Source: Bacteroidales bacterium
Lineage (GTDB): Bacteria; Bacteroidota; Bacteroidia; Bacteroidales; Bacteroidaceae
NCBI GenBank assembly: GCA_022784065.1
Contig: JALFUO010000068.1
Location: forward strand, 1 to 40,308
DNA length: 40,308 bases
Reading direction: 5' to 3'
The position numbers and the translations under genes are program-made. Shown piece by piece: positions 9,934 to 17,769 of the stretch. Numbering within the stretch: the first letter of the stretch is position 1; every line of letters starts with the position of its first letter. Under the pieces are notes generated by a model. The model worked only from the letters and a program-made list of their open reading frames with translations. It made no database searches and had not been told where the DNA came from.

Positions 9934-9975
9934 GGACGTTTTTTGCGCTTAAAACAAAACTTTTATGGCAAATCG

Positions 9976-10006
9976 TTTGCATTTTGCTTGGAATGTGCTA
10001 CATTTG
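9976..10006 (+). promoter_or_regulatory. promoter of the pheA aromatic operon
   Basis: TTTG (9976-9979), N19, TACATTTG (9999-10006), a consensus Bacteroidetes promoter. Confidence 0.75.
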
Positions 10007-10048
10007 CAAGCGAAAAGCAATTGTCGCACCAATAGCATAGGCTTATTT

Positions 10049-10099
10049 ATGGCACACAACGCACAGTTTTTCGGCTTTTACTTTTACTTTGCTCAGTAA
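10049..10099 (+). CDS. Phe/Tyr-rich leader peptide MAHNAQFFGFYFYFAQ
   Basis: ATG GCA CAC AAC GCA CAG TTT TTC GGC TTT TAC TTT TAC TTT GCT CAG TAA; 5 Phe and 2 Tyr in 16 residues, between promoter and attenuator hairpins. Confidence 0.8.
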   Translation: MAHNAQFFGFYFYFAQ

Positions 10100-10151
10100 A
10101 GCGAAGCGGGAAAGCGCGTGCCAAACATAACATTTGACCATACAACAATTC

Positions 10152-10190
10152 AGTCCCGCTTCCAACGAAGAAGCGGGACTTTTTGTTTTG
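10152..10190 (+). terminator. intrinsic terminator (attenuator) in the pheA leader
   Basis: AGTCCCGCTTC (10152-10162), loop CAACGAA, GAAGCGGGACT (10170-10180), then TTTTGTTTTG; 11-bp perfect stem, 22 nt before the pheA ATG. Confidence 0.9.
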
Positions 10191-10202: not shown

Positions 10203-11033
10203 ATGAAAAAGATAGCCATTCAGGGCATTCGCGGTTCGTTCCACGACATTGCCGCCCATCAGTATTTCAAAGGAGAGGAGCTCAGGCTCGTGTGCTGCGA
10301 CACGTTCGAGGACGTGTTCCGGCAGATGCGCATCGACAGCGCCTGCCTCGGTATGGTGGCGATAGAAAACACCATCGCCGGCAGCCTGCTCTACAACTAT
10401 GAGCTTCTGCGCGAGAGCGGCATGAGCATCGTGGGCGAGCACAAGTTGCACGTAGAGCATAGCCTGATGTGCCTGTCCGAAGACACAGTCGATGACATTC
10501 GCGAAATAAACTCTCACCCCGTGGCCCTTGCGCAGTGCCGCCGCTTCCTCTCGGAAAAGCGCGGGGTGAAGCTCGTGGAAACCGACGACACGGCCGGCGC
10601 GGCAGAACAGATAGCCCGAGAGCAGCTGCGCGGGCACGCCGCCGTGTGCCACGCCGATGCAGCCGGCATCTACGGTCTGAAAGTCCTGGCGCGGGGCATT
10701 GAGGACAACAAGCACAACTTCACGCGCTTCCTCGTACTGGCCGATCCCTGGCAGGCCGAAGCCGTGAGGCAGCAGGAAGAGGCCGACAAGAGCAGCATCG
10801 TCTTTGCCCTGCCCCACGAGGAAGGCTCGCTCTCGCAGGTGCTCAGCATTTTCAGTTTCTACAAGATCAACCTCACCAAAATCCAATCTTTGCCCATCAT
10901 AGGCCATGAGTGGGAATACCTGTTTTATGTGGACGTGGTGTACAGCGACAGCCTCCGCTTCCGGCAGAGCGTCGACGCGCTGCGCCCGCTGACCCGCGCG
11001 TTGAAGATTTTGGGAGAATATAAAGGCAAGTAA
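10203..11033 (+). CDS. pheA: prephenate dehydratase
   Basis: MKKIAIQGIRGSFHDIAAHQYF; 'GMVAIENTIAGSLLYNYELL'; C-terminal ACT-like 'SIVFALPHEEGSLSQVLSIFSFYKINLTKIQSLPI'. Confidence 0.93.
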   Translation: MKKIAIQGIRGSFHDIAAHQYFKGEELRLVCCDTFEDVFRQMRIDSACLGMVAIENTIAGSLLYNYELLRESGMSIVGEHKLHVEHSLMCLSEDTVDDIREINSHPVALAQCRRFLSEKRGVKLVETDDTAGAAEQIAREQLRGHAAVCHADAAGIYGLKVLARGIEDNKHNFTRFLVLADPWQAEAVRQQEEADKSSIVFALPHEEGSLSQVLSIFSFYKINLTKIQSLPIIGHEWEYLFYVDVVYSDSLRFRQSVDALRPLTRALKILGEYKGK

Positions 11034-11035
11034 TT

Positions 11036-12211
11036 ATGGACGCATTACGCAAACCCCAGCCCGCCGACCGCCTGAGCGGCGTGAGCGAATACTATTTTTC
11101 AAGAAAACTCAAGGAGGTGGCGCAGATGAGGGCGCAGGGCGCAGACATTATCTCGCTCGCCATAGGCAGCCCCGACCTGCCGCCTTCGACTGAAACGGTG
11201 GAAACGCTCTGCCGCGAGGCGAAACGCCCCGAAGGGCACGGCTACCAGCCCACGATGGGCACGAAAGAACTGCGCACGGCCATGGCTGGATTTTACAGCC
11301 GCTGGTTCGGCGTGACGCTCGACCCCGACCGCGAAATCCAGCCGCTCATCGGGTCGAAAGAAGGCATCCTCCACGCCACGCTCGCGCTGGCCAACGTGGG
11401 CGACAAGGTGCTCGTGCCAAATCCCGGCTACCCCACTTACACCTCGCTCTCCAAACTGCTCGGCTGCGAGGTGGTGCCTTACGGCTTGCGCCCCGAAAAC
11501 GGCTGGCAGCCCGACTTTGAAGAACTCGAACGCCTCACCGACGACAGCCGCGTGCGTATCCTGTGGATGAACTACCCGCACATGCCCACCGGCGCGGCGG
11601 CGCAGCGCACCACGTACGAGCGGGCGGTGGAACTGGCACGGCGCAAAGGCTTTGTCGTCATCAATGACAATCCTTACAGCTTTATCCTCTCCAGCGAACG
11701 GCTCAGCATCTTGCAAGTGCCGGGTGCAAAGGAATGCTGCATCGAACTCAACTCCATGAGCAAGAGCCACAACATGCCGGGCTGGCGCGTGGGCATGCTT
11801 GCCTCGAACGCCGAGTTTGTAAGTTGGGTGCTTAAAGTGAAGAGTAATATAGACTCGGGCACCTTCCGCGCCTTGCAGCTCGCGGCAGCCACGGCCTACG
11901 ACAATGCCGACGCCTGGCACGAGGAACACAATATAAATATATACGCGCGGCGCCGCCGTTTGGCGGAAGCCATCATGGCTGCCCTCGGCTGCACCTTCGA
12001 CCCCGCGCAGGTGGGCATGTTCCTATGGGGGCGTATACCCGAAGGCATGGACAATGCCGAGCAGCTAACGGAGCGCGTGCTGCACGAGGCGCACGTGTTT
12101 CTCACGCCCGGTTTCATCTTCGGCAGCAATGGCAACCGCTACGTGCGCATCTCGCTTTGCGCTTCCGAAGAAAAATTGCAAGAAGCCCTGCAACGCATCA
12201 AGGCTCTCTAA
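11036..12211 (+). CDS. pyridoxal-phosphate aminotransferase, class I/II
   Basis: 'ISLAIGSPDLPPSTETVETL', 'GYQPTMGTKELRTAMAGFY', 'LVPNPGYPTYTSLSKLLGCEVVPY', 'NSMSKSHNMPGWRVGML' (PLP lysine region). Confidence 0.93.
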   Translation: MDALRKPQPADRLSGVSEYYFSRKLKEVAQMRAQGADIISLAIGSPDLPPSTETVETLCREAKRPEGHGYQPTMGTKELRTAMAGFYSRWFGVTLDPDREIQPLIGSKEGILHATLALANVGDKVLVPNPGYPTYTSLSKLLGCEVVPYGLRPENGWQPDFEELERLTDDSRVRILWMNYPHMPTGAAAQRTTYERAVELARRKGFVVINDNPYSFILSSERLSILQVPGAKECCIELNSMSKSHNMPGWRVGMLASNAEFVSWVLKVKSNIDSGTFRALQLAAATAYDNADAWHEEHNINIYARRRRLAEAIMAALGCTFDPAQVGMFLWGRIPEGMDNAEQLTERVLHEAHVFLTPGFIFGSNGNRYVRISLCASEEKLQEALQRIKAL

Positions 12212-12270: not shown

Positions 12271-13341
12271 ATGGAACTAAATATTACACCCTTATCGCTT
12301 CCCGGCATAGAAACGCAGCGACCGATAATCATAGCCGGCCCTTGCTCCGCCGAAACCGAAGAACAAGTAATGAGCACGGCGTGCCAACTGGCAGGCAAGG
12401 GCGTGCGCATCTTCCGCGCAGGCATCTGGAAACCGCGTACCAAGCCCGGCGGCTTTGAGGGCGTGGGCGAACCGGGGCTGCCGTGGCTCACGCGTGTCAA
12501 GAAGGAAACGGGTATGCTTGTGGCTACCGAAGTGGCTACGCCGCAGCACGTCGAGGCTGCGCTCGCGGCAGAAGTGGATATCCTTTGGGTAGGCGCGCGC
12601 ACCGTGGCCAATCCCTTCGCGATGCAGGCCCTGGCAGATGCCTTGAAAGGCATAGATGTGCCTGTGCTTGTGAAGAACCCCGTCAACCCCGACCTTGAAC
12701 TTTGGATTGGCGGCATAGAACGCCTTAACGGCGCAGGCATCACGCGACTGGCCGTTATACATCGCGGCTTTTCCTCTTACGAAAAACGCCTCTACCGCAA
12801 CACGCCGATGTGGCATATCCCCATTGAACTGCGCCGCCGCATATCGAACCTCCCTATCTTCTGCGACCCGAGCCACATAGGCGGCGCGCGCGAACTCATC
12901 GCCCCGCTCTGCCAGCAGGCCATGGACCTCGGTTTCGACGGCCTGATGGTGGAAAGCCATTGCACGCCCGACTGTGCTTGGAGCGACGCGAAGCAACAGG
13001 TAACGCCCGACGTGCTCGACTTTATCCTCTCAAAACTCGTAATCCGCGAGCTTGCCCCCACGACGGAAAGCCTTGAAACCCTGCGCCGCCACATCGATGA
13101 AATCGACAACAACCTTATGGAACTCCTTGCCAAGCGTATGCGCATCAGCCGTGAAATAGGTCAATATAAATTGGAGCACAACATGACCGTCGTCCAAACC
13201 CGCCGCTACAACGAAATCCTCGACAAGCGCGGTGCGCAAGGCGTGCTCTGCGGCATGGCGCCCGAGTTTGTGAAAAGCGTGTTTGAGGATATTCACGAAG
13301 AAAGCGTGCGCCAGCAGATTGAATTGATGAATAAGAAATAA
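12271..13341 (+). CDS. bifunctional 3-deoxy-7-phosphoheptulonate synthase / chorismate mutase type II
   Basis: Start MELNITPLSLPGIETQRPIIIAGPCSAETEEQV; 'FRAGIWKPRTKPGGFEGVGEPGLPWL'; C-terminal 'ESLETLRRHIDEIDNNLMELLAKRMRISREIGQYKLEHNMTVVQTRRYNEIL' is chorismate mutase. Confidence 0.95.
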   Translation: MELNITPLSLPGIETQRPIIIAGPCSAETEEQVMSTACQLAGKGVRIFRAGIWKPRTKPGGFEGVGEPGLPWLTRVKKETGMLVATEVATPQHVEAALAAEVDILWVGARTVANPFAMQALADALKGIDVPVLVKNPVNPDLELWIGGIERLNGAGITRLAVIHRGFSSYEKRLYRNTPMWHIPIELRRRISNLPIFCDPSHIGGARELIAPLCQQAMDLGFDGLMVESHCTPDCAWSDAKQQVTPDVLDFILSKLVIRELAPTTESLETLRRHIDEIDNNLMELLAKRMRISREIGQYKLEHNMTVVQTRRYNEILDKRGAQGVLCGMAPEFVKSVFEDIHEESVRQQIELMNKK

Positions 13342-13397: not shown

Positions 13398-14183
13398 ATG
13401 CGCATACTTATCCTCGGAGCCGGCAAGATGGGCTCTTTCTTTACAGATGTCCTTAGTTTCGACCATGAAACGGCGGTGTTCGACACCGACCCAAAGCGGT
13501 TGCGCTTCATGTACAACACGCAGCGGTTTACCGCCGAGGAAGAAATTAAGGCGTTCCGCCCCGAACTCGTGATCAACGCCGTGTCGCTCAAGCATACGTT
13601 AGACGCGTTCCGCCGCGTGCTGCCGCTCTTGCCGCAAGACTGCATCTTGAGCGACATTGCCTCAGTCAAGACCGGGCTGAAAGGCTTTTACGAAGCCTGC
13701 GGTCGCCGCTACGTTTCTACCCACCCGATGTTTGGCCCCACCTTTGCCAACCTCGGCGCGCTCCACGATGAGAACGCCGTGATTATCACCGAGGGCGACT
13801 ATATGGGGCGCATCTTTTTCCGCGACCTGTATAAGAACCGTCTCGGGCTGAACGTGTGTGAATACACCTTTGAGGAGCACGATGAAACGGTGGCCTATTC
13901 CCTGAGCATTCCCTTTGTTTCCACGTTTGTATTCTCGGCGGTGATGAAGCATCAGGACGCGCCTGGCACAACTTTCAAGCGGCATTTACGCATTGCCCGC
14001 GGCGTGCTCGGCGAGGACGACTGCCTGCTGCGCGAAATCCTGTTCAATCCTTACACCGTAGGGCAGGTGCGTAAGATCGGCAGCGAAATGGAAACGCTCG
14101 CCCGGCTTATTGAGCAGAAAGACGAAGAAGGGCTCAACGCCTTTATCCATCGCATTAGGAAAAATGTGTGCGAAGGCAAATAA
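13398..14183 (+). CDS. tyrA: prephenate dehydrogenase
   Basis: MRILILGAGKMGSFFTDVLSFDHETAVFDTDPKRL, 'LSDIASVKTGLKGFYEACGRRYVSTHPMFGPTFA'. Confidence 0.9.
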   Translation: MRILILGAGKMGSFFTDVLSFDHETAVFDTDPKRLRFMYNTQRFTAEEEIKAFRPELVINAVSLKHTLDAFRRVLPLLPQDCILSDIASVKTGLKGFYEACGRRYVSTHPMFGPTFANLGALHDENAVIITEGDYMGRIFFRDLYKNRLGLNVCEYTFEEHDETVAYSLSIPFVSTFVFSAVMKHQDAPGTTFKRHLRIARGVLGEDDCLLREILFNPYTVGQVRKIGSEMETLARLIEQKDEEGLNAFIHRIRKNVCEGK

Positions 14184-15311: not shown

Positions 15312-15351
15312 TTTGGTTTTTGTCGCAAAAATGTTGTATATTTGCGACAAA
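15312..15351 (+). promoter_or_regulatory. promoter and overlapping inverted-repeat operator of the AbiE-like cassette
   Basis: TTTG (15312-15315), N21, TATATTTG (15337-15344); inverted repeat TTTGTCGCAAA (15319-15329) / TTTGCGACAAA (15341-15351) flanks and overlaps the -7 box. Confidence 0.75.
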
Positions 15352-15368
15352 ATTACTCCTTAATTCAA

Positions 15369-15974
15369 ATGCAATCTCTTGAAGATAGAATAATTACGAA
15401 TATATCTAAACGCGGTAGGGGTACAATAGTATCGCCTCTTGATTATGCGGGATATGGAGATTCAAAGGCAGTCCAAAAAGCCTTTGAACGACTTACTGCA
15501 GCCGAAAAGCTGATAAGAGTGGCACGTGGTGTCTATTGTTATCCAAAAATTGATAAGGTTTTGGGGTTAGGTATTCTTTATCCGACCATTGAGGAGGTTG
15601 CCGCCGCTATTGCAAGGCGCGACAAGGCTAAGATAGTTCCGACCGGGACGTATGCACTTAATAAGCTTGGGTTATCAACACAGTTACCGATGAATGTGGT
15701 ATATCTGACTGATGGATCGCCACGTAAAGTAAAGTTGGAAGGTAACAGGGGCATTCAGTTCAAACATACAGCTAAAAAAAATCTGGCTTTTCAGAATGAA
15801 ATCGCAATGCTTCTCACATTTGCTCTGCGCGAAATCGGAGAAAACAATATTGCCGATACTCAACTTGCCCATATCCGTAATCTGGTCAAGTCTATACCAT
15901 TTGAAACAATAAAAAAGGATTTTGCCCTGATTCCGGCATGGATCCGTAAAATTATACTCGATTCCTATGGATAA
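15369..15974 (+). CDS. DUF6088 / AbiEi-like antitoxin (type IV toxin-antitoxin)
   Basis: Start MQSLEDRIITNISKRGRGTIVSPLDYAGYGDSKAVQKAFERLTAAEKLIRVARGVYCYPK (wHTH), immediately followed by an AbiEii-like gene. The listed start 15342 is a TTG inside the promoter. Confidence 0.85.
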   Translation: MQSLEDRIITNISKRGRGTIVSPLDYAGYGDSKAVQKAFERLTAAEKLIRVARGVYCYPKIDKVLGLGILYPTIEEVAAAIARRDKAKIVPTGTYALNKLGLSTQLPMNVVYLTDGSPRKVKLEGNRGIQFKHTAKKNLAFQNEIAMLLTFALREIGENNIADTQLAHIRNLVKSIPFETIKKDFALIPAWIRKIILDSYG

Positions 15975-16974
15975 ATTTCTGACGCTTACCGAGGCTCAAA
16001 GAAGAACAGTGTTTGAGCAGACAGCCGCAAAGATAAAACTTCCTGTAGCTGCCATTGAGAAAGATTTTTGGGTAACGGAGATACTCAATATTCTTTTCTC
16101 ACTGCCATACGCAGACAAGATGGTGTTCAAAGGAGGTACATCACTCAGCAAAGTCTGGGGTGTCATCCGACGGTTCTCAGAAGATATTGACATTGCCATA
16201 GATCGCAATATGTTCGGGATTGAGGGTGATGTAACCAAGAGGCAATTAAAGAAGTTGCGTAAAGCGTCGTCGATATTTGTCCGGGATACTCTTGCCAATG
16301 ACCTGACGCTGGCGGTAAAACAAGCAGGATTAAGTGAATTTGTGACGATTAAGGCGGACCCCGATGGAGAAGGAGACGCGACATACCCTGAGCCTCGACA
16401 GATTCACATAATCTATAAGTCGGTACTACCCTCTGGAACTAATCCATATCTCCGTGATGAGGTACTGCTGGAAGTTGGAGCACGTTCTCTGTTTGAACCG
16501 ACGGCCAAAGCGAAGGTTGAATCCTTTGTAACTGGGGCGTTTCCGCATCTTACATCAAATGACAGTGATGTTCAGATTGTTGCCGCAGTTGCAGAAAAGA
16601 CATTTCTTGAAAAGGCATTCCTGCTTCATGAGTTATTCACAACCAATGGTTGCCGAAATGCCGATCGTAAATCACGACACTTGTATGACCTATGCAAGAT
16701 GTATGAGGCTGGAATTGCCGACAAGGCTATTCCTGATGATGAACTGTGGGAAACCATTCGCCATCATCGGGAAGTATTCACTTCAATACGCGATGTTGAC
16801 TACACACCGGACATTCGCAAACGGATTACCCTCACTCCCCCTGAAAGCGTCATCGAAGAATGGAAAAACGACTATGATACTATGGTCAAAAATATGATAT
16901 ATGAAGATAATGTCCCCTCATTTGCGGACATCCTCGGAGTTGTGGTAAAAATAGAAAATATGTTCAAGGCTTAA
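15967..16974 (+). CDS. nucleotidyltransferase, AbiEii/AbiGii toxin family
   Basis: 'VAAIEKDFWVTEILNILFSLPYADKMVFKGGTSLSKVWGVIRRFSEDIDIAI' is the AbiEii nucleotidyltransferase motif; overlaps the AbiEi-like gene by 8 bp. Confidence 0.92.
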   Translation: MDKFLTLTEAQRRTVFEQTAAKIKLPVAAIEKDFWVTEILNILFSLPYADKMVFKGGTSLSKVWGVIRRFSEDIDIAIDRNMFGIEGDVTKRQLKKLRKASSIFVRDTLANDLTLAVKQAGLSEFVTIKADPDGEGDATYPEPRQIHIIYKSVLPSGTNPYLRDEVLLEVGARSLFEPTAKAKVESFVTGAFPHLTSNDSDVQIVAAVAEKTFLEKAFLLHELFTTNGCRNADRKSRHLYDLCKMYEAGIADKAIPDDELWETIRHHREVFTSIRDVDYTPDIRKRITLTPPESVIEEWKNDYDTMVKNMIYEDNVPSFADILGVVVKIENMFKA

Positions 16975-16998: not shown

Positions 16999-17769
16999 AT
17001 GGAAAAGTCTTTTAAACAAAGCGTAATAGAGGGACTGAAATGTTATGTATATGTGCTTGTTGATCCTCGCAACAATTGTATTTTCTATGTGGGGAAAGGT
17101 TCAGGAAACCGTGTTTATCAGCATGCACAGGACGCACTTGTAGAAGACCCTCCAAGTCTAAAGTTATCTACTATAAGAGAAATCAAGGGGTTGGGGTTGG
17201 ATGTAAAGTATTACATCATTCGGCATAATTTGTCAGATCAAGAGGCATATCTAGTTGAGTCTTCTATCATAGACTTACTGACTTATCCTGCTTTCAATAA
17301 GGGAAATATACTTACTAATATTGTTAGTGGACACCATCAGTGGAACGAGGGTATTAAAACGGATGAAGAAATCAATATCCTATATGACTGTCCAAAGATT
17401 GAGCCGATTCCGGGAGATAGACTTCTTTTAGTCAGTCTTAATAAAAGTTATCAGCAATCAAAGGCAACCGGAGTATATCGCCGAGCCAACGATTATGAGA
17501 GTGTCCGTAAATACTGGCAACTCTCAAGCGACAAAGCAAATAAGGTAACACATATCTTGGGTATATATAGAGGGATTGTTCGTGTTGTAATTGACGTTAA
17601 AGGTAACTCCCTTTGCTCAGTAGCAGACGACGGAACGGTTTTTAAGAAGCCACGATTCGCGTTTGAGGGTGATATAGTTCCAAATTCACCATACCTTAAT
17701 AAAGACGTAACTGACTATCCTTTTGGTAGAGGTGGCGCGATAACTTATATTCCACGGACCAATTTTTAG
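16999..17769 (+). CDS. GIY-YIG (LEM-3-like) nuclease domain protein with a C-terminal EVE/PUA-like region
   Basis: 'CYVYVLVDPRNNCIFYVGKGSGNRVYQHAQDAL...AYLVESSIIDLL' is GIY-YIG. C-terminal 'LLLVSLNK...YESVRKYWQLSSDKANKVTHILGIYRGIVRVVID...RFAFEGDIV' resembles EVE-like domains found with such nucleases (lower certainty). Confidence 0.78.
   Translation: MEKSFKQSVIEGLKCYVYVLVDPRNNCIFYVGKGSGNRVYQHAQDALVEDPPSLKLSTIREIKGLGLDVKYYIIRHNLSDQEAYLVESSIIDLLTYPAFNKGNILTNIVSGHHQWNEGIKTDEEINILYDCPKIEPIPGDRLLLVSLNKSYQQSKATGVYRRANDYESVRKYWQLSSDKANKVTHILGIYRGIVRVVIDVKGNSLCSVADDGTVFKKPRFAFEGDIVPNSPYLNKDVTDYPFGRGGAITYIPRTNF

Follow-up and report, generated by a model that had tools for sequence, protein, structure and literature searches.

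A putative pheL-like transcription attenuator with phenylalanine and tyrosine codons upstream of the pheA aromatic operon in Bacteroidota

Introduction

Ribosome-mediated attenuation requires tight coordination between the ribosome and RNA polymerase, and it is best known in Proteobacteria. In Bacteroidota, translation starts mostly without Shine-Dalgarno sequences. Among the closest described systems is the enterobacterial pheL-pheA pair (Rfam Phe_leader; PMC11802643), in which a Phe-rich leader ORF and a 1:2/2:3/3:4 pairing logic control pheA. The C. glutamicum leader AroR, reviewed in the same work, carries Phe-Tyr-Phe codons ahead of a DAHP synthase operon (aroR-aroF) and responds to Phe limitation only, not to Tyr (PMC11802643). 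In a survey from 2010, Proteobacteria and Actinobacteria were the only groups with leader-peptide systems known until then, and Firmicutes were added to them (PMC2965389).

For Bacteroidota, the bacteroid-trp motif, named for trp, was listed in 2010 as a candidate structured RNA of Bacteroidetes (PMC2864571), and leader-like sORFs were noted in B. thetaiotaomicron (PMC7366714). As far as its main text goes, a study of 2021 described a structured 5' element that precedes pheA, is conserved among Flavobacteriaceae and has no Rfam match, together with "strong clues" for leader-peptide attenuation before amino acid operons of this family (PMC9723704); that main text gives no anatomy, wider distribution or covariation, mentions no tandem form and does not analyse Phe/Tyr specificity. 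On the strength of these four reports (the 2021 study as far as its main text), this type of mechanism is not new and there were already hints of it in the phylum, a record that the earlier note on this DNA had underestimated with regard to the pheA element of 2021 and the bacteroid-trp motif. Our literature search for ribosome-mediated attenuation in Bacteroidetes, or for leader peptides with Tyr codons, found nothing, and the searchable literature appears to lack a description of the anatomy, the breadth, the covariation and the match between codons and operon that are presented below.

The element studied here would work like pheL and lies outside the Phe_leader RNA family; the enterobacterial covariance model gave no match in the window, neither at the gathering threshold nor at E<=10. 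It shares with pheL-pheA the Phe-rich leader, the pairing logic and the target gene, but its segments are unrelated in sequence, Tyr codons are interleaved with the Phe codons, it has a Bacteroidota-type promoter, and the operon behind it also makes Tyr and the common precursor. It resembles aroR-aroF in its Phe/Tyr leader before a DAHP synthase gene, whereas phylum and gene order differ and the aromatic run of AroR is much shorter. The Flavobacteriaceae element, as reported in the main text of that study, precedes the same gene in the same phylum, and the flavobacterial-type leaders that we recovered (e.g. L183-L207) are probably that element.

Results

The aromatic operon and its host

The window, that is, the whole stretch of 40,308 nt that was analysed, is contig C22 of a MAG of 2.2 Mb and 85% completeness. 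The nearest relatives of this MAG in named collections are Alloprevotella and Prevotella, and the host is a gut-type Bacteroidota. HMM searches agreed with the operon content proposed in the earlier note (pheA, an aminotransferase, DAHP synthase/chorismate mutase and tyrA), as follows:

10203-11033, + strand: pheA, prephenate dehydratase without a fused chorismate mutase (NCBIfam NF008865, E 2.8e-62); start codon ATG at 10203
11036-12211, + strand: PLP-dependent aminotransferase (HMM; DapC/aspartate aminotransferase-like, below curated cut-offs)
12271-13341, + strand: DAHP synthase fused to chorismate mutase, DAHPS-CM (HMM)
13398-14183, + strand: tyrA, prephenate dehydrogenase (NF006409, E 7e-17)

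Among 80 loci fetched by protein similarity this gene order was intact in 72; in the remaining 8 it could be followed only up to the aminotransferase or DAHPS-CM, a truncation probably due to contig ends. A YhcG/DUF1016 PDDEXK nuclease (8125-9195) and a LEM-3-like GIY-YIG domain protein (16999-17769) are encoded near the operon. At 15342-16974 the window encodes a DUF6088 protein and, after it, an AbiEii nucleotidyltransferase, which together resemble a type IV toxin-antitoxin pair; a separate match to the TTTG/TAnnTTTG promoter pattern lies at 15312-15344 for this pair. Family searches of the window's own genome found no HisG and no TrpE-like gene, its single chorismate-binding enzyme resembling isochorismate synthase; this may denote His/Trp auxotrophy or the incompleteness of the MAG.

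Leader, RNA segments and promoter

The leader ORF with five Phe and two Tyr codons, the segment coordinates and the pairings of the earlier note proved correct to the base, and the promoter that it had placed ahead of the ORF is of the Bacteroidota type and is kept upstream in relatives. The features are, in order:

9976-9979, + strand: -33 promoter box TTTG (pattern TTTG-N17-21-TAnnTTTG)
9999-10006, + strand: -7 promoter box TACATTTG (same pattern), with a 19-nt spacer from TTTG
10049-10099, + strand: leader peptide ORF MAHNAQFFGFYFYFAQ, 16 codons, 5 Phe and 2 Tyr (sequence)
10067-10090, + strand: control codons Phe-Phe-Gly-Phe-Tyr-Phe-Tyr-Phe (sequence; stall modelling)
10087-10093, + strand: segment 1, CTTTGCT, overlapping the last Tyr, Phe and Ala codons; pairs with segment 2
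10100-10111, + strand: segment 2, AGCGAAG (10100-10106) plus GAAGCGGGA (10103-10111); pairs with segment 1 or 3
10108-10120, + strand: pause-like element GGGAAAGCGCGT|G (G-11, G-10, Y-1, G+1), by YRTG enrichment; putative function
10152-10162, + strand: segment 3, AGTCCCGCTTC, common to antiterminator and terminator (sequence; conserved helices)
10170-10180, + strand: segment 4, GAAGCGGGACT, 3' arm of the terminator; pairs with AGTCCCGCTTC at 10152-10162
10180-10189, + strand: terminator T tract TTTTTGTTTT (sequence)

The ORF reads ATG GCA CAC AAC GCA CAG TTT TTC GGC TTT TAC TTT TAC TTT GCT CAG TAA. Segment 1 pairs with AGCGAAG in a 1:2 helix of 7 bp with one G-U, and GAAGCGGGA is fully complementary to TCCCGCTTC (10154-10162) in the 2:3 helix. 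The terminator stem has a folding energy of -19.6 kcal/mol (z = -6.1), and the 139-nt leader also folds with z = -6.1; in both cases none of 200 shuffles was equally stable. Counting against an attenuator, the free, untranslated leader RNA of the window contains a competing CUUU/AAAG hairpin that leaves 2:3 unblocked. The minimum free energy fold also paired the leader start with a region past segment 2, a pairing that we dropped as it was not found by RNAalifold. Searches of the window against Rfam at gathering and permissive thresholds (E<=10) returned chance matches only, with no T-box among them.

The Bacteroidota promoter pattern had 6 matches in the window against 0.38 expected, and transcription of the leader would start near 10012-10014. 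Among relatives, TAnnTTTG lies at most 110 nt 5' of the leader ATG in 126 of 154, while mono-shuffled controls gave a mean of 9. A longer in-frame ORF from near 9965 was rejected, as its start precedes the predicted transcription start.

Ribosome geometry and a possible pause site

In a footprint model with some 15 nt protected, counted from the A site, a ribosome stalled at Tyr10079, Phe10082, Tyr10085 or Phe10088 masks segment 1 and leaves all nine 2:3 pairs free. Six pairs are left at Ala10091, three at Gln10094 and one at the stop codon (10097), so the model would place the switch after the last aromatic codon and ahead of the stop.

The pause-like element sits 13 nt 3' of the 1:2 hairpin. 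In 82 of 143 relatives, YRTG closely follows the segment 2 G-run (200 shuffles: mean 16, maximum 26), mostly 5-7 nt past the last G. With this spacing the 3' end has Y-1/G+1 and a G stands at -10, as in the pause consensus of E. coli RNA polymerase, and the element may act here as a polymerase pause.

Conservation and covariation

We collected 189 distinct pheA upstream regions, sampled at every rank from genus to phylum, and defined an aromatic leader as an ORF with at least 5 Phe/Tyr in ten residues. Such leaders were found in 174/189 natural regions versus 48/945 dinucleotide shuffles, and a strict scan for leader plus intrinsic terminator gave 154/189 versus 2/945. Several strict-scan misses (e.g. 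L111, L112, L072) carry the element with an imperfect stem, and the true leader-less pheA genes include some directly behind another gene (L025, L195, L206).

The alignment of orthologous leaders that had been proposed as a check showed conserved codons and covariation in the three mutually exclusive helices, all of them conserved with compensatory changes. Across 38 aligned relatives, the 1:2 helix was paired in 99.6% of cells, with 5 cells changed on both sides; the values were 95% and 6 cells for 2:3, and 92.3% and 20 cells for 3:4. Slid controls brought pairing down to about 35-63%, and RNAalifold recovered 1:2 and 3:4 unprompted. At order level segments 2 and 3 vary between species with their complementarity retained: it was strong in 83% of loci, versus 3% when shuffled and 28% with segment 3 swapped between species (72%, 3% and 24%, respectively, in the wider phylum).

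The peptide tail is not conserved. It runs over segment 2 in differing frames (..AGQAKRDVVC in Alloprevotella, ..ASNCEAGSCV in Prevotella), and in some relatives, as in the window, the leader stops before segment 2; segment 2 is therefore kept as RNA and not as peptide. One leader of the collection (L015, genome G011) seems frame-altered, MTQNNVFYFYFTSLPNKRSG..., with only its first aromatic codons in frame and segments 1-4 retained.

Distribution

A covariance model built in this analysis (R1) matched 46/58 genomes of the genus and 127/151 of the family (20/22 genera), nearly always in single copy, and all but three weak matches in the genus lie directly upstream of pheA. Within the class, Flavobacteriales-like genomes have leaders as well, and so do some genomes outside it; the putative attenuator is found across the phylum Bacteroidota. 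The bacteroid-trp RNA (RF01692) was not detected in the window or its own genome, nor above the cut-off in the genus. At order level a pheA match was present in 68/148 and 185/393 genomes, with about half lacking one, which suggests that Phe auxotrophy is widespread or that the enzymes have diverged.

Phe and Tyr codons follow the content of the operon

In a first set of 42 loci, the five leaders of solo pheA genes (those with no DAHPS-CM or tyrA behind) had little or no Tyr, and operon leaders were mixed. We then drew a prospective set of 80 new order-level loci to test the Tyr-codon prediction. All 67 operon leaders had at least 2 core Tyr codons and all 3 solo-pheA leaders at most 1 (Fisher p = 1.8e-5, counting related genomes as independent; solo leaders are few, and 2 of the 3 come from genera already solo in the first set). 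Overall, at least 2 core Tyr codons were present in all 94 scored operon leaders, and the solo pheA cases are spread over five families.

Detached operons in solo-pheA genomes have a leader of their own followed by a terminator (MIKNISVFAYFYYYFYFSNK, MNNTFGYYAFYYYFFYNN, MENSHKISGIYTASFSFFYFYFYYFTDRTGVLCC). In one family-level relative (G435), solo pheA carries the Phe leader MYNTSASFFSNFFFVFTWRR and the aminotransferase-DAHPS-CM-tyrA operon the Tyr-rich leader MQQLNAYVYSYYYFTLTR. The median core Y/(F+Y) was 0.0 for solo pheA, 0.44 for the blind full-operon set and 0.6 for detached DAHPS/tyrA (p = 6e-7 and 1e-4, with related genomes again taken as independent). At 0.29, the window leader stands at that end of the operon range which favours Phe.

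Tandem leaders

The window has a single leader module. An automatic scan found two aromatic leaders in series upstream of pheA, each with its own terminator, in ten loci (L120, L125, L163, L171, L152, L155, L158, L162, L170 and L180); one further automatic call (L102) was judged false and discarded. By eye we identified two more tandem pheA loci (L113 and L114), and in L379 and L380 two leaders precede a detached aminotransferase-tyrA-DAHPS operon. These serial leader-terminator modules, carried by some Bacteroidales, are candidate tandem attenuators. The tandem attenuators of Salmonella mgtCBR, with two short ORFs in one leader, are a precedent for a serial arrangement; their ORFs and signals are other ones and belong to a magnesium-transport operon, whereas here both modules are aromatic leader-terminators.

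Discussion

We are highly confident that the element of the window would be a ribosome-mediated transcription attenuator reading the charging of both tRNA-Phe and tRNA-Tyr. The leader and its competing hairpins appear to switch off the operon when Phe and Tyr are both plentiful. In the proposed mechanism, transcription would begin at the TTTG/TACATTTG promoter, and the polymerase probably pauses just past the 1:2 hairpin while the ribosome begins the leader peptide. When Phe-tRNA or Tyr-tRNA is scarce, the ribosome would stall in the FYFYF run and mask segment 1, allowing 2:3 to pair and the polymerase to read through into pheA-aminotransferase-DAHPS/CM-tyrA. With both tRNAs charged, it would reach the stop codon, which abuts segment 2; segment 2 would then be masked and 3:4 would form the intrinsic terminator. 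Sequence and comparison establish the anatomy, the three covarying helices, the geometry, the conservation across the phylum and the agreement of codons with operon content; from these we infer that ribosomes stall and transcription terminates in vivo, that the polymerase pauses, and that the switch answers Tyr besides Phe.

The attenuation of the classical kind that the earlier note had proposed is supported, at the level of sequence comparison, by the codons, the three covarying helices, the geometry, the promoter and the single copy per genome. Three other readings of the RNA itself fare poorly against this evidence. A plain upstream terminator with a conserved small protein and no switching would fit the strength that the terminator has on its own; it is very improbable, given that changes in segments 1 and 2 are matched in their pairing partners and that the peptide tail changes frame, and such a terminator, placed between the operon's own promoter and pheA, would silence the operon. 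Control through Rho, or purely at translation via the leader ORF, seems to us just as improbable: many leader ORFs of other systems do work through Rho and coupling in Bacteroidota is little studied, but a canonical intrinsic terminator, with a covarying stem and a T tract, is conserved and, in the window, ends just before the pheA start. A structured RNA upstream of biosynthesis genes could also be a ligand-binding riboswitch, a T-box or a protein-controlled leader, a reading to which we give the least credence of all, as there was no Rfam match of any kind in the window, conservation falls on aromatic codons and on simple stems that compete, and codon identity follows the products of the operon.

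The alternative of more weight concerns what is sensed. The attenuator might respond to Phe only, with Tyr codons as tolerated fillers, and Tyr sensing is not to be assumed, since AroR of C. glutamicum, with its Phe-Tyr-Phe codons, answers Phe limitation only. Leaders also have more Phe than Tyr codons (5 versus 2 in the window, 4.9 versus 3.9 on average). Against this, the cores of solo-pheA leaders are almost without Tyr while every scored operon leader has some, and detached DAHPS/tyrA leaders are Tyr-rich, as MQQLNAYVYSYYYFTLTR illustrates. We regard a Phe-only response as unlikely. That the Tyr codons may sense the second product, as had been suggested for the window, is supported by the comparison, in which they are almost absent from solo-pheA leaders and enriched on detached DAHP synthase/tyrA; the simplest reading is that the codons suit what the downstream enzymes finally make, so that both tRNAs would be sensed. 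The comparative evidence points to a real attenuator in the window, very probably a dual Phe/Tyr sensor.

With less certainty, although we consider it probable, the elements would form a phylum-wide family of combined Phe-or-Tyr sensor attenuators, with codons rewritten as operons split or fuse (pure-Phe on solo pheA, mixed on full operons, Tyr-rich on detached ones) and with two stacked in series in several lineages. The element represents a new RNA family, missing from Rfam, within a classical mechanism. A conserved switch present once per genome across the phylum is strong indirect evidence of ribosome-polymerase coordination in Bacteroidota, and offers a ready reporter for it. Furthermore, the split operons are a natural experiment on evolving regulatory specificity, in which leader codons shift to fit the enzymes behind.

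Two further leaders were observed away from pheA. A second strong R1 match (L229:448-594; G474:C51) has a Phe-rich leader, MTAMYTIFFSFFFFYFSNKVKREFVCVQE, and a terminator, followed by genes for a porin-like protein, a thioesterase, an AMP-binding enzyme resembling phenylacetate-CoA ligase, and an ACT protein; these may form another route to Phe that starts from phenylacetate. In L231:323-476 (G363:C56), a Leu/Ile-rich leader, MNLSSLHTILLSSILLNGIIIILLAKCKWSEYRV, with a terminator lies upstream of leuA-leuC-leuD, which suggests that branched-chain synthesis in this family is also under leader-peptide attenuation.
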